The notes under the pieces: generated by a model
The model's input: only the letters and a program-made list of their open reading frames with translations
What the model was told of the DNA's origin: nothing
Databases searched by the model: none
Shown here: positions 50,862 through 56,038 of the stretch, piece by piece
Numbering within the stretch: position 1 is the first letter of the stretch
How the letters are laid out: every line of letters starts with the position of its first letter
Source of the DNA: Brevundimonas alba
GTDB lineage: Bacteria > Pseudomonadota > Alphaproteobacteria > Caulobacterales > Caulobacteraceae
Direction of reading: 5' to 3'
Assembly (NCBI RefSeq): GCF_011927945.1
Contig: NZ_JAATJM010000001.1
Span: 1,001,501 to 1,065,500 of the forward strand
DNA length: 64,000 nucleotides
Position numbers and translations under genes: made by a program

Positions 50862-52094
50862 ATGCCGCTTCCCGCGCCGAAGAAAGTCGTGCTCGCCTAT
50901 TCCGGCGGACTGGACACCTCGATCATCCTCAAGTGGCTGCAGACCGAATACGGCGCGGAGGTCGTGACCTTCACCGCCGACCTCGGTCAGGGCGAGGAAC
51001 TGGCGCCGGCGCGCGAGAAGGCGCTGAAGCTCGGCATCAAGGAAGAGAACATCTTCATCGACGACCTGCGCGAGGAGTTCGTGCGGGACTACGTCTTCCC
51101 CATGTTCCGGGCCAACGCCCTGTACGAGGGCCAGTATCTGCTCGGCACCTCGATCGCGCGGCCGCTGATCGCCAAGCGCCAGATCGAGATCGCCCGCATG
51201 GTCGGCGCCGACGCCGTCTGCCACGGCGCCACCGGCAAGGGCAATGATCAGGTCCGGTTCGAGCTCGGCTACTATGCGCTGGAGCCGGACATCCGGGTCA
51301 TCGCCCCGTGGCGCGAATGGGCCTTCAAGTCGCGCGAGCACCTGCTCGACTTCGCCGAGAAGCACCAGATCCCGATCTCCAAGGACAAGCGCGGCGAGGC
51401 GCCGTTCAGCGTCGACGCCAACCTTCTCCACTCCTCCAGCGAGGGCAAGGTGCTGGAGGATCCGGCGGTCGAGGCCCCCGAGTTCGTGCACCAGCGGACG
51501 CTCTCGCCCGAGGATGCGCCGGATACGCCCACCGTCATCACCATCGGCTTTGAGCGCGGCGACGCCGTCTCGGTCAATGGCGAGGCGATGAGCCCGGCGA
51601 CCCTGCTGACGGCCCTGAACCAGTACGGCCATGACAACGGCATCGGCCGCCTCGACCTGGTCGAGAACCGCTTTGTCGGCATGAAGTCGCGCGGCGTCTA
51701 CGAGACCCCGGGCGGGACCATCCTGCTGGCGGCGCACCGCGGCATCGAGTCGATCACCCTCGACCGCGGCGCCATGCATCTGAAGGACGAGCTGGCCGTC
51801 AAATACGCCCACCTGCTCTACAATGGCTTCTGGTTCTCGCCCGAGCGCGAGATGCTGCAGGCCGCCATCGATCACTCGCAGACGAAGGTCTCGGGCACGG
51901 TCCGGGTCAAGCTCTACAAGGGCAATGCGACGGTCATCGGCCGCGAAAGCCCGAACAGCCTGTACGATCAGGAACTGGTCACCTTCGAGGACGGCGCCGT
52001 GGCCTACGACCAGAAGGACGCCGCCGGCTTCATCAAGCTCAACGCGCTGCGCCTGCGCGTGCTCGGCAAGCGGGATCAGCGCGGCGAAGGCTGA
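50862..52094 (+). CDS. argG: Argininosuccinate synthase
   Basis: 410 residues joining citrulline and aspartate with ATP. The PP-loop [18 protein letters not shown] (SGGLDTS at 14-20), [54 protein letters not shown] and the C-terminal [19 protein letters not shown] are all diagnostic. The ATG at 50862 is chosen at [10 protein letters not shown]. The 3' end overlaps the convergent sorbosone dehydrogenase-like gene by 19 bases. Confidence 0.97.
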
Positions 52095-53377
52095 GTCCGC
52101 GCGATCCTGAGAATGGCGCCGGCGCGGTCGTCGGCGATCCAGATCGAGCCGTCCCGCGCCACCGCCAGGCCGGCGGGCGATCCGCGCGGGTGCACGCCGG
52201 CCCGCGTGTCCCAGCCGGGCGTCAGAACCCGGGCGCGCGGCGCGGGCGCCTGTGCCGGGTAGGGCAGGCTGCCGTGCGGATAGATGGCGTAGCGGGCGCG
52301 GCTGTCCGTCATCGGCGCGCCCGCGGCGTCGGTCTCGATGGCGACCACTCTCCCGGCCGCCCGCCGATAGCCGTGCCAGCTCATCAGCATCCGGCCGCGC
52401 AGCTCCGGGAACATCGGCCCGTCATAGTAGAGCATGGCCAGCGGCGCCGCGTGCGGCGGCAGCAGGGAGACCGGCGCGGTCCGCTCGCCGCACCGTGACC
52501 GGCGCGCGGTCCAGCCGGGCAGGGCCGCGCCCATGTCGGTGCAATACGGCCAGCCGAAATCGGCGCTCGCGTGCAACTGGTTGATCTCGTCGAACGGCCG
52601 GTCCGGCGTGGTCAGATCGACCGAGTTCTCGGCCTGATAGACAGCCCCCGACGCATGCCGCGCCATGGCCACCGAGTTGCGCAGCCCGGTCGAATACGCC
52701 GTCCACTCGCGGCTCCAGCGCCCGCCGCCCAGATAGCCATAGCGCCGCACCATCCCCTGTTCGGCGCTTTCGACGCACTGGCCCTGCGCGGTCCGTCGGG
52801 GCGCGCCCGCCGCGTCGAGGCAGCGGTCCGACGGTGCGCCGACATTGACCAGCAGGGCGCCGTCGCGGTCGAAGACGAAGCTGGACAGCGGATGGCGGTT
52901 TTCGTGCAGCCGGTTGTCAGGCAGGCCATCGATCACAGCGGTCACCGCTTCGGGCCGCGCCGGATCGACGGCGAAGATCCGGCTCATCTCGGCGACATAG
53001 ACGCGCCCGTCGGGGCCGGTCGCCACCGTGTGAGGCATAGACAGGCCGCGCATCAGCCGGGTCCACCGCACGGCCCCGTTACCGCCCGGGCTCATCCGCC
53101 ACAGGGCCCCGCGCCCCGCCTCCCAGCCGCCGAGGTCGGTGACCAGCCAGTCGCCGTCCGGCAGTTCCAGCAGGCCGCGCGGCATCCGCGGCCCCTCGCC
53201 GCCGGTCCGCTGCCACACCCGCCCGAGGCAATAGCCCTCGGCCATCCGCACCGCCGTCGCAGGCCGTCCGCCGCAGTCGCCCGAGACGGCGTAGACATGG
53301 CTCGCGCCCTGACCGGCGACGGGGGCGGCGAGGCTCCCGACGACCAGCGCCGCCAATATCGCGATCCGTCGGATCAT
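52076..53377 (-). CDS. Secreted sorbosone/glucose dehydrogenase-like beta-propeller
   Basis: 433 residues. A signal peptide [22 protein letters not shown] precedes a PQQ-dependent sugar-dehydrogenase-like propeller: [69 protein letters not shown], and [25 protein letters not shown]. The EINQL-like and FGWPYC sequences are typical of the family (L-sorbosone dehydrogenase). Whether it binds PQQ is unclear. Convergent with argG. Confidence 0.85.
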
Positions 53378-53503: not shown

Positions 53504-53956
53504 ATGTCTCTCCGTATCATTCTCGCCGCCTCGGCCGTTCTCGCCTTCGCTGCGCCCGCCTTCGCCCAGGACGCCCCCGCCGCTCCGCCGGCCGCCAGCG
53601 CAGAGGACACCGCGGCCCAGGCCGCCTTCGAGGCCAAGGGCGAAGCCTTCGGCGCCCGCATGGAAGCCATGGGCGGCGAGATGCAGGCGGCCGTCACCGC
53701 CGCCAACGGCGATCAGGCCCGCGCGACCGCCGCGCTCGACGTCATCGTCGCCAAATACCAGCCCGAGGCCGACACCTTCGCCACCGAGCTGGAAGCCTTC
53801 ATCACCAGCCAGATGGCCAATGCTCCCGAAGAGCAGCGCGCCCAGATGGTCGCCATGGGTCCGATGATCTCGGCCCAGGTCAAGGGCGCTCCGGCGCAGA
53901 TGCGGGACCAGGCCCTCGCCTCGATGACGGCCGCGGCCGCCGCTCCGGCCCAGTAA
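53504..53956 (+). CDS. Secreted Ala-rich helical protein (paralogue 1)
   Basis: 150 residues. Signal peptide MSLRIILAASAVLAFAAPAFAQ, then an Ala/Pro linker and a helical domain with EAKGEAFGARMEAMGGEMQAA, ALDVIVAKYQPEADTFATELEAF and MVAMGPMISAQV. It aligns with the downstream gene over FGxRxEA...ALxxxxxKYQPxxxxFxxxL. No known family. AGGA precedes the ATG at a distance of nine. A terminator-like stem (53974-54000) follows. Confidence 0.72.
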   Translation: MSLRIILAASAVLAFAAPAFAQDAPAAPPAASAEDTAAQAAFEAKGEAFGARMEAMGGEMQAAVTAANGDQARATAALDVIVAKYQPEADTFATELEAFITSQMANAPEEQRAQMVAMGPMISAQVKGAPAQMRDQALASMTAAAAAPAQ

Positions 53957-53973
53957 TTTCTCCCATGCGGATG

Positions 53974-54000
53974 AGGCGGCGGTCACCCCGGCCGCCGCCT
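53974..54000 (+). terminator. Candidate terminator after paralogue 1
   Basis: AGGCGGCGG and CCGCCGCCT form a perfect 9-bp GC-rich stem with a nine-base loop, 18 bases after the stop codon. Only TTA follows, so termination would be weak without Rho. Confidence 0.45.
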
Positions 54001-54068
54001 TACCGCGATTTCACTTGAGGCGGGACGGCGTTCGGCGGATTTTGATCGGGTCCTTCAGGAGCCCCGCC

Positions 54069-54728
54069 ATGATCAAGGCCCTCTCTCTCGCCGCCGCCCT
54101 CGCCCTTCTGCCCCTGTCGACCGCGGTCGCCCAGGAGGCCAAGGGTTCGTCCGAAGCCGCCCTCGAGGCCGCCGCGGCCGTCTTCGAAGCCCGCATGGAA
54201 GCCTTCGGCGAACGCGCCGAGGCCATCTCAGCCGACAAGAGCCTGACCGAGGCCCAGCGCGAGGTCCGCATCGCGGCGCTCTGGACCGAATATCAGCCCG
54301 ACGTGAACGCCTTCACCGCCGCCGCGACCCAGCACGCCTCCGGCATCGCCGCCGAGGCCCTCGCCGAGGTCGACATCGAGGCCGTTGTCGCCGAGGCGCT
54401 CGCCTCCGTTGACGTCGCCGCCATCACCACGGAGGCGCTCCAGGGCGTCGACATCCAGGCCATCACCGCCGAAGCCATGGCCGAGGTCGCCGCCTCGGGC
54501 GTGCTGCAGGGCGCCCTCGCCGGCGCCGAGGGCATGGCCGCCAACGGCTCCTGGGCCTCCAACGATCCGGAGCATATGGCCACCTACGGCCTGATGGCCG
54601 ACTACGCCGTGGGCGAGGCGCTCGACTCGCTCGACGAAGCCCAGGCCGACCTCGCCGAGGCCGCCGCGGACGTCGAGGTCGACATCGATGTCGCCGACGA
54701 GGCGCCCGAGGCCGCCGACGAGGACTGA
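54069..54728 (+). CDS. Secreted Ala/Glu-rich helical protein with 13-residue repeats (paralogue 2)
   Basis: 219 residues. Signal peptide MIKALSLAAALALLPLSTAVAQ, a domain with FEARMEAFGERAEAI and ALWTEYQPDVNAFTAA like paralogue 1, then three and a half 13-residue repeats of the type EALAEVDIEAVVA (residues 96-143), a small Gly/Asn segment and a strongly acidic tail DVEVDIDVADEAPEAADED. CAGGAG lies eight bases upstream of the ATG. The repeats suggest a solenoid or amphipathic rod. No known family. Confidence 0.72.
   Translation: MIKALSLAAALALLPLSTAVAQEAKGSSEAALEAAAAVFEARMEAFGERAEAISADKSLTEAQREVRIAALWTEYQPDVNAFTAAATQHASGIAAEALAEVDIEAVVAEALASVDVAAITTEALQGVDIQAITAEAMAEVAASGVLQGALAGAEGMAANGSWASNDPEHMATYGLMADYAVGEALDSLDEAQADLAEAAADVEVDIDVADEAPEAADED
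54354..54497. repeat. 39-bp tandem repeats encoding 13-residue units
   Basis: Three full units plus a partial one (EALAEVDIEAVVA, EALASVDVAAITT, EALQGVDIQAITA, EAMAEVAAS) lie head to tail inside the coding sequence. The units differ in sequence, indicating an old duplication kept by selection. Confidence 0.7.
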
Positions 54729-55406: not shown

Positions 55407-55489
55407 GGGCTTGTCCGACGGCGGAACCGCGTTGTTCATGTGCCGTTCAGCAGGAAAGGCGCTTTATGGGCGCCTCAAGGAGATTTCAG

Positions 55490-56038
55490 ATGAAGACTCG
55501 CGTCCTCAAGCCCGTCCTGCTCGCGGTGACGGCGGCGCTGGCCCTGTCGGCCTGCGCGACGGCGACCCCCTACGGCCCGGCCGGACAGGGCAGCCGCTAC
55601 GGCTATTCCGACCTCCGTGTCGACCAGAACCGCTTCCGTGTCGCCTTCGCCGGCAATTCGGTGACCTCGCGTGAACAGGTCGAGATGGGCCTGCTCCTGC
55701 GCGCCGCCGAGGTGACGCTGGAAAGCGGCAACGACTGGTTCGCCACGGTCAACCGCGCCACTGACCGTGACGTGCGCTACGCCGCCTCGCCGGATCCGTT
55801 CTACTACGACCGGTACCGCCCGTACTGGGGTCCCTCGTGGCGCTACTACCGCCGCGGTCTGTGGAGCCCGTGGGCCGATCCGTTCGGCTCCAGCATGGAT
55901 GTCCGCGAGATCGACCGCTTCGAGGCCAATGCCGAGATCGTGGTCGGCGACGGGCCCAAGCCGGCCGGCGACCCCAACGCCTTCGACGCCCGCGAGGTGA
56001 TCCAGAACCTCGGCCCCCGCGTCCCGCGTCAGATGTAA
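55490..56038 (+). CDS. CC0125/CC1285-type lipoprotein
   Basis: 182 residues. Signal peptide with lipobox LALSAC, then ATATPYGP, the family-like RYGYSDLRVDQNRFRVAFAGN, SREQVEMGLLLRAAEVTLE and a Tyr/Trp-rich segment (PFYYDRYRPYWGPSWRYYRRG) before DVREIDRFEANAEIVVG. This pattern recalls the CC0125/CC1285 lipoprotein family of Caulobacteraceae, of unknown function; the name is from memory. AAGGAG precedes the ATG at 55490 well. It ends with the terminator at 56045. Confidence 0.8.
   Translation: MKTRVLKPVLLAVTAALALSACATATPYGPAGQGSRYGYSDLRVDQNRFRVAFAGNSVTSREQVEMGLLLRAAEVTLESGNDWFATVNRATDRDVRYAASPDPFYYDRYRPYWGPSWRYYRRGLWSPWADPFGSSMDVREIDRFEANAEIVVGDGPKPAGDPNAFDAREVIQNLGPRVPRQM

Follow-up and report, generated by a model that had tools for sequence, protein, structure and literature searches.

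Spy/CpxP proteins are small, exported and all-helical, with LTxxQ as their signature, and PF02520 (SXP/RAL-2 Ani s 5-like) is a nematode family. On the regulatory side, work on Rhodobacter CenR reports that most of its targets are envelope proteins and that 28 of its 31 sites lie directly upstream of a -35 box, in the direction of transcription (PMC9275681; PMC9561847), and the motif of Caulobacter ChvI is given as TTGC-N3-GCAA (PMC9731502). Here we compare with these systems a pair of genes, A and B, of Brevundimonas alba in the window, i.e., the whole stretch of 64,000 nucleotides of DNA that was analysed. A sequence-only reading had singled out this pair as tandem paralogous secreted helical proteins, and the observation is sound: A and B appear to be a real, genus-wide and uncharacterised protein system with a probable location in the envelope, and a real system seems likely because the paired genes adjoin an unusually conserved promoter. 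The span of 53504 to 54728 given by that reading is exact, with the ATG of A at 53504 and the stop codon of B ending at 54728, and the locus comprises the following features:

53504 to 53956, forward strand: gene A, an open reading frame for an exported-looking three-helix protein of 150 residues
53504 to 53566, forward strand: signal-peptide-like leader of A, 21 residues, judged by eye
53975 to 53999, forward strand: perfect 8-bp GC hairpin GGCGGCGG..CCGCCGCC on the 3' side of A, read directly from the sequence
53997 to 54019, forward strand: conserved 23-bp element GCCTTACCGCGATTTCACTTGAG, 49 nt 5' of the ATG of B, from conservation across 77 rows
54015 to 54020, forward strand: putative -35 box TTGAGG, from promoter geometry across 77 rows
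54038 to 54043, forward strand: putative -10 box GATTTT at a 17-bp spacer, from promoter geometry across 77 rows
54069 to 54728, forward strand: gene B, an open reading frame for an exported-looking helical protein of 219 residues, paralogue of A
54069 to 54131, forward strand: signal-peptide-like leader of B, 21 residues, judged by eye
54354 to 54470, forward strand: three full 13-residue units EALAEVDIEAVVA / EALASVDVAAITT / EALQGVDIQAITA, from a self-match test
54471 to 54509, forward strand: partial fourth unit EAMAEVAASGVLQ, from the same test

In the window, the two genes lie head to tail on the forward strand with 112 nt between them. The hairpin at 53975 to 53999 is a possible terminator candidate for A, though without a T-run; GC-rich inverted repeats akin to it are present in close relatives and not evident in many others. 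Three short DNA matches occur elsewhere in the same genome. Both proteins had been read as carrying signal peptides and, by eye, each indeed starts with a signal-peptide-like leader (ending between AFA and QD in A and between AVA and QE in B), which makes export probable. The mature part of B counts 42 D/E and 6 K/R among its 198 residues.

That A and B are tandem paralogues is borne out by a comparison of their mature parts at the profile level. Profiles built from 77 B and 75 A sequences, with the first 22 residues cut off, align over 66 columns in hhalign, without a gap through YQP and at 97.7% probability (E 1.5e-12, score 77.0), compared to scores of 10.7 for a reversed profile and at most 20.9 for 100 column-shuffled profiles. 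The A alignment has 75 rows; three of 77 A-type matches (76 loci) were dropped from it, L116 because it has no start codon and L081:2536 and L128:2458 because they are short copies. BLASTP of single A against B sequences is weak (E 0.028), too weak alone for paralogy, and it is thus from their profiles that we judge A and B to be paralogues. Both motifs that the two proteins were said to share are present, FGxRxEA as FGARMEA in A and FGERAEA in B, and YQP in both. YQP is also in register, but FGxRxEA lies one heptad out of it, with the profile alignment pairing FGARMEAM of A with FEARMEAF of B.

As had been noted at the outset, no known family is recognised, given that A and B of the window remain below every curated cut-off in Pfam and NCBIfam. 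Neither of them matches LTXXQ or Metal_resist in Pfam at E<=10, and these two families are likewise absent from the 25 families found at E<=1 for 30 B orthologues; for 30 A orthologues, 25 of 40 weak families were inspected. The Spy model of NCBIfam gives window B an E-value of 0.29 (11.4 bits against a cut-off of 174) and reaches 3 of the 77 B proteins at E<=0.01, with a best E of 0.0037. At E<=1, PF02520 is matched by 18 of the 30 B members, with a best E of 0.00042; window B scores 20.6 bits, below the gathering score of 29.3. PF03938 (OmpH) matches window A at E 0.14 (12.8 bits against a cut-off of 32.4) and 4 of 30 A members at E<=1, the best again at 0.14. Further weak matches are those of MOSP_N in 9 of 30 B members (best E 0.00017), of PepSY_2 in 7 of 30 (best E 0.0016), and of ARM_ECM29 to A (E 0.029). 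When the A and B profiles were compared by hhalign with the genome's own PF13801 proteins (two over the cut-off, each as a single sequence) and with its PF03938 protein, probabilities of 0.1-2.0% were obtained. On family scores and this profile comparison, we rejected membership in Spy/CpxP, Metal_resist or Skp. Window B contains one LTxxQ, within the stretch SLTEAQRE, where many orthologues read SLSEAERG or similar.

The 13-residue repeat array described in B is real: the best 26-residue self-match in mature B has 16 identities at a lag of 13, and none of 2000 shuffles reaches it (maximum 15). It consists of three full 13-mers and a partial fourth at residues 96-147 and is not reported by Tandem Repeats Finder. 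Because the first three units are just 64-72% identical in their DNA (25-28 of 39 nt), they are no fresh copies. Among 77 B proteins, a strict rule finds one unit in 66, two in 9, three in 1 (the window) and none in 1, and a loose rule finds one in 59, two in 16 and three in 2 (the window and L082); the counts thus depend on the rule, and some second units are borderline. The usual B orthologue has one unit and a partial second, and window B has two units more. The proposal that, once duplicated, B acquired its three and a half repeats fails on these counts, since nearly all B proteins share one unit (66 of 77 under the strict rule), and what stands of the suggested expansion are the two extra units of window B. 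Variation of repeat number among homologues, which had been put forward as a check, was found and spans one to three units. When “two or more units” is mapped as a label on the protein tree, six changes are required, each of them forced by starred branches, so the number of units has changed recurrently; by strict count, the window, with its three units, belongs to a clade in which the other four members have two. The tail of window B is strongly acidic as described (13 D/E and 0 K/R in the last 30 residues), but this is a lineage-specific rather than a conserved property, with 3 to 13 D/E in the last 30 residues of the 77 B proteins and many of these tails being proline-rich.

A is predicted to fold into three helices (pLDDT 86.0, pTM 0.72). 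The overall prediction for B (pLDDT 77.9, pTM 0.49) includes a confident helical hairpin at residues 27-100 (block means mostly 91-98), followed by short helices in the repeat region (pLDDT about 70-83) and then a long C-terminal helix. The Asp of unit one is directly followed by predicted helix 103-113 and that of unit three by predicted helix 129-143, and unit two is predicted to form a four-residue helix only. A solenoid or coiled coil had been envisaged for the repeat, but the predicted repeat is not clearly a solenoid, nor is it a coiled coil, and shows short helices at middling confidence. Foldseek searches with predicted A and B gave no match at E<=0.001. The best VIA-align matches are ribosome recycling factor for A (Z 8.9, rmsd 4.3, 103 residues aligned) and HP0062 for B (Z 8.6, rmsd 5.1, 83 aligned), with 8gl8_E, a chain from a SkpA-including complex, second for B (Z 8.4, rmsd 6.4, 105 aligned). 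We dismissed these fold neighbours, as their Z scores are within the range common for helical bundles; Spy and CpxP are not among the VIA-align matches listed, which does not count against them. Sequence searches of the PDB with A and B returned weak matches only, mostly to helical proteins, including Lpp for the A profile (E 0.029) next to engineered helical proteins (E 0.015).

Homologues are found well beyond this genome, in one genus except for a weak partial match, and the refuting condition stated with the observation, which asked for their absence, thus fails. Among 101 relatives, 52 match B and 51 match A at E<=0.001, both sets being confined to 1 of 17 genera. In G024, G042 and G056, the B match falls at the A gene of the genome, so about 49 relatives have a true B, and one A match (in G038) covers the leader only. 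A search with the B profile of 299 family genomes, 73 of them from the genus, found 65 that match, all among these 73 and thus in 1 of 22 genera; two of the 65 (G194 and G285) match weakly and partially. Of 200 genomes of the order, 15 match B, with a single partial match (E 2.4e-4) outside the genus. A pattern-based genome scan with B as the query, which is why B is present throughout, yielded 76 loci, of which 59 are titled Brevundimonas and the remaining ones are mainly Caulobacterales or unassigned alphaproteobacterial records. One contig (L100) is titled as a Bordetella MAG and carries a B placed with that of Brevundimonas diminuta on the tree; it is probably misbinned, since its B falls inside the Brevundimonas tree. 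Among the literature matches listed for exported proteins of Brevundimonas, there is nothing on the A/B pair.

The arrangement of the two genes is conserved: at 72 of 76 loci, B follows A in the same orientation after a gap of 26-499 nt. Of the four remaining loci, L085 has its B starting at base 167, and no A is found in L087, L134 and L139. Extra tandem A-like copies are seen at a few loci, two further upstream in L081 (2536-3423) and L128 (2458-3246) and one downstream of the pair in L065 (4644-5108). By tblastn with the window proteins, and with some loci being too short, argG lies upstream at 50 of 76 loci, and a LysE-type gene and a relative of 55466-56038 lie downstream at 58 and 59 of them, respectively. 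Between argG and A, the window contains an exported-looking (by eye) sorbosone-dehydrogenase-like gene on the reverse strand (52076-53377). A relative of this gene is found upstream of B at just 12 of 76 loci, so it varies in the neighbourhood. The names that we use for neighbours here and below (argG, LysE-type, sorbosone-dehydrogenase-like, TrmB-like and YCF48-like) are presumptive, having been assigned by eye.

The frame of B is open at all 76 loci. Compared to the eight nearest relatives, window B shows pN of 0.14-0.18 and pS of 0.37-0.47, and window A pN of 0.23-0.28 and pS of 0.43-0.59. In closer pairs, pN is below pS for 99.8% of 2268 pairs of B and for just 68% of 1107 pairs of A (median ratio 0.89), suggesting that A is weakly constrained or poorly aligned. 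Across all pairs, the median pN/pS is 0.65 for B and 0.83 for A (maxima 1.05 and 1.79), values that are near saturation and uninformative, and as evidence for B we used the nearest-relative values alone. Positions W72, Y75, F82, L98, N159, T172 and Y179 are, among others, invariant in the 77 B proteins, and no Cys or His is found among the invariant columns.

Between A and B lies the best-conserved stretch measured at the locus, which exceeds even the coding sequence of B. Across 77 rows, the mean top-base fraction is 0.98 for the 23-bp element, 0.45 for the 36 bases on its 5' side and 0.58 on its 3' side, with the rows lined up ungapped on the motif, which favours the element over its flanks; the best 23-nt window among the 162 well-filled codon columns of B reaches 0.89. 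At the 76 loci, the core 19-mer TACCGCGATTTCACTTGAG is exact at 60 and has one mismatch at 11, two at 3, three at 1 and four at 1. Counting the window (77 loci), the element is located upstream of B at 68 and upstream of A at 9, and it precedes A at each of the nine loci where it is missing before B. The gap between A and B is 26-36 nt at eight of these nine loci and 110 nt at the other (L125), as if the two genes formed one transcript there.

A spacer of 17 bp from TTGAGN places an A at position 2 and a T at position 6 of the -10 box in 76 of 77 promoters, a number that does not amount to 77 independent events because the rows share ancestry and are aligned on the motif; at spacers of 15, 16, 18 and 19, the same is true for 3, 1, 0 and 0 of 77. 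This arrangement fits a sigma-70 geometry with a poor -10 box, in which the other four positions are poor. A direct repeat, TTAC-N7-TCAC, is found beside the -35 box and is a plausible putative activator site. Among the literature matches listed, the exact promoter core occurs in one paper, on gremlin siRNA, and matches for TTTCACTT in combination with Caulobacter and promoter are unrelated as far as their titles and abstracts go. The promoter between A and B did not feature in the sequence-only reading.

The element also occurs elsewhere. Of 299 family genomes, 59 contain CCGCGATTTCACTTGAG with one mismatch or none, all of them from 1 of 22 genera, against two hits for the control, and exact TTACNNNNNTTTCACTT is found in 87 of 105 genus genomes at 98 sites, with one control hit. 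Of these 98 sites, 82 were presumptively assigned to A/B promoters from their sequence, and the 16 with another core were fetched. Judged by eye, 11 of these 16 precede genes for exported-looking products: a single family of small secreted proteins accounts for six of these sites and a Tat-type protein for two, and the other three are isolated cases. The six secreted-family sites share the full -35/17/-10 layout, and the other five (L204, L205, L206, L212 and L213) are without -10 geometry. Members of the secreted family (L199, L200, L202, L207, L208 and L209, near position 1000 on the motif strand) are 125-132 residues long with two cysteines in a ..CPADLMA..AC.. stretch, and their promoters read TTAC-N5-TTTCACTTGAG and then CATNNT at a 17-bp spacer. 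The remaining 5 of the 16 sites read TTTCACTTT and are not located before exported-looking genes; by eye, three precede a TrmB-like gene and one an ArsR-type gene, and another (L210) shares the context of the TrmB sites, with its first listed ORF 166 nt away. L198, L201, L203 and L210 carry TTACGNCGATTTCACTTT and then a CAACTAGG stretch, followed by a TrmB-like regulator gene in the first three, and these sequences seem to be a different operator, perhaps a self-regulatory one. When one mismatch is allowed, TTACNNNNNTTTCACTT finds five sites in the genome of the window, compared to 0 for the control. Besides the A/B site, these are L192, L193, L194 and L195 (near position 1500 on the motif strand), which precede genes with exported- or membrane-bound-looking products by eye. 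For a longer 17-mer, allowing up to three mismatches, this genome shows no enrichment (5 sites against 4 in the control).

Regulators known from other Alphaproteobacteria were considered for this element. CenR, which is reported as essential in Caulobacter, is hinted at by the position of the site but unsupported by the published Rhodobacter matrix (PMC9275681): a matrix from the 31 Rhodobacter sites scores the element at 3.8, and 30 of the 31 known sites score higher when left out. Among 127,972 15-mers of the window, 438 reach at least 3.8 on this matrix. The best such 15-mer in the gap between A and B (54032-54046, forward strand, score 8.3) overlaps the putative -10 box and not the element. 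The TTGC-N3-GCAA motif excerpted for ChvI does not fit the element (PMC9731502), and the accessible portion of work on Brucella CenR contains no motif (PMC10746171). Regions upstream of the genome's two TolQ-family genes gave no match to the direct-repeat patterns that were scanned.

Our preferred reading, which we put forward tentatively, is that A and B are envelope proteins under an activated promoter that bind clients in a chaperone- or buffer-like manner independently of ATP. An old tandem duplication would have given rise to A and B, usually beside argG, which were then kept as a pair and would act as periplasmic helical proteins of Brevundimonas. B, or A and B together at 9 of 77 loci, would be transcribed from a weak sigma-70-type promoter (TTGAG, a 17-bp spacer and NANNNT). 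Since the almost invariant TTACCGCGATTTCAC site abuts the -35 box of this weak promoter, an activator is suggested, probably an OmpR-type response regulator that would bind TTAC-N7-TCAC and switch on exported proteins. In the envelope, A and B would bind clients without ATP, with the shared N-terminal helical hairpin as the common core and with the 13-residue helical units and variable acidic or proline-rich tail of B widening the binding surface. The genes, their paralogy and conservation, the variation in repeats and the conservation of the promoter are established by the data, and export, the activator with its class, and the function are inferred. A periplasmic binding or scaffolding role of the kind suggested from the sequence alone is possible for both proteins, and the distribution in a single genus argues against a core chaperone role. 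An extended version seems improbable as a whole: a Brevundimonas-specific envelope-stress circuit in which an OmpR-type regulator reads TTACCGCGATTTCAC and drives CpxP-like A/B and other exported proteins, while B senses or buffers damage and feeds back on the sensor, and unit number sets affinity or reach.

Several other explanations have to be weighed against client binding. A and B might be structural or spacer proteins: bound to peptidoglycan, the outer membrane or surface material, they would form a coat or fix a distance, with the repeat number tuning length. Helical rods and a short-helix repeat with six changes in number on the tree would suit this idea, as would the weak Lpp match of the A profile in the PDB sequence search (E 0.029), but engineered helical proteins rank alongside it (E 0.015), and composition probably accounts for the match. 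Furthermore, one to three units are few for a ruler, no lipobox is apparent by eye, and no OmpA-like or LysM domain is among the matches listed (for A, 25 of 40 weak families), and we consider this explanation rather unlikely. Less likely still, A and B could be CpxP-like accessory inhibitors or sensors of a two-component system that drives their own promoter, creating feedback. An exported-looking helical product behind a single near-invariant element beside the -35 box would be expected from such an arrangement, and SLTEAQRE of B resembles the LTxxQ signature. Yet LTxxQ is not invariant (SLSEAERG in many orthologues), the tested PF13801 proteins show no profile match, and no kinase or regulator gene is seen by eye among window ORFs at about 50.8-57.4 kb.

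That the pair serves to bind or buffer cations is very doubtful. It would draw on the acidic tail, on the 42 D/E against 6 K/R of mature B and on the weak SXP/RAL-2 Ani s 5-like matches in 18 of 30 B members (E<=1), but window B scores 20.6 bits where 29.3 are required, the acidic tail is not conserved, and the invariant columns contain no Cys or His. We regard it as highly unlikely that A and B are spurious or decaying ORFs without function: the matches are confined to one genus, bar one weak partial match elsewhere in the order, and A is weakly constrained over wider distances, but all 76 B frames are open, gene order and promoter are conserved, and W72, Y75 and F82 are invariant in 77 B proteins.

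With A/B present in most sampled genomes of the genus and without a curated family, the pair, whose promoter element is better conserved than its coding sequence, points to an envelope function in Caulobacterales that is yet to be described. The most valuable new result is this element, as it provides a handle for finding the regulator and its signal, and natural, otherwise alignable B orthologues that differ in their number of 13-residue units form a small series for testing the effect of repeat number.

Compared to the described systems, the element resembles the CenR sites in the available excerpts in that it also abuts the -35 box and has T-N-A-type spaced half-sites, but its long invariant extension is without a counterpart among those sites. 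PF02520 gives a weak yet recurrent match on the N-terminal half of B, with window B below the cut-off. Skp/OmpH proteins are likewise exported and helical, and PF03938 matches A weakly, whereas the genome's own PF03938 protein is without profile similarity to A or B. Spy/CpxP proteins differ in that B is a predicted hairpin with short repeat helices, is found in one genus and scores 11.4 bits on the Spy model against 174, but the small size, the exported-looking and helical nature of the proteins and the LTxxQ-like stretch at the start of helix 2 in window B are all reminiscent of them, and an envelope setting would be common to both.
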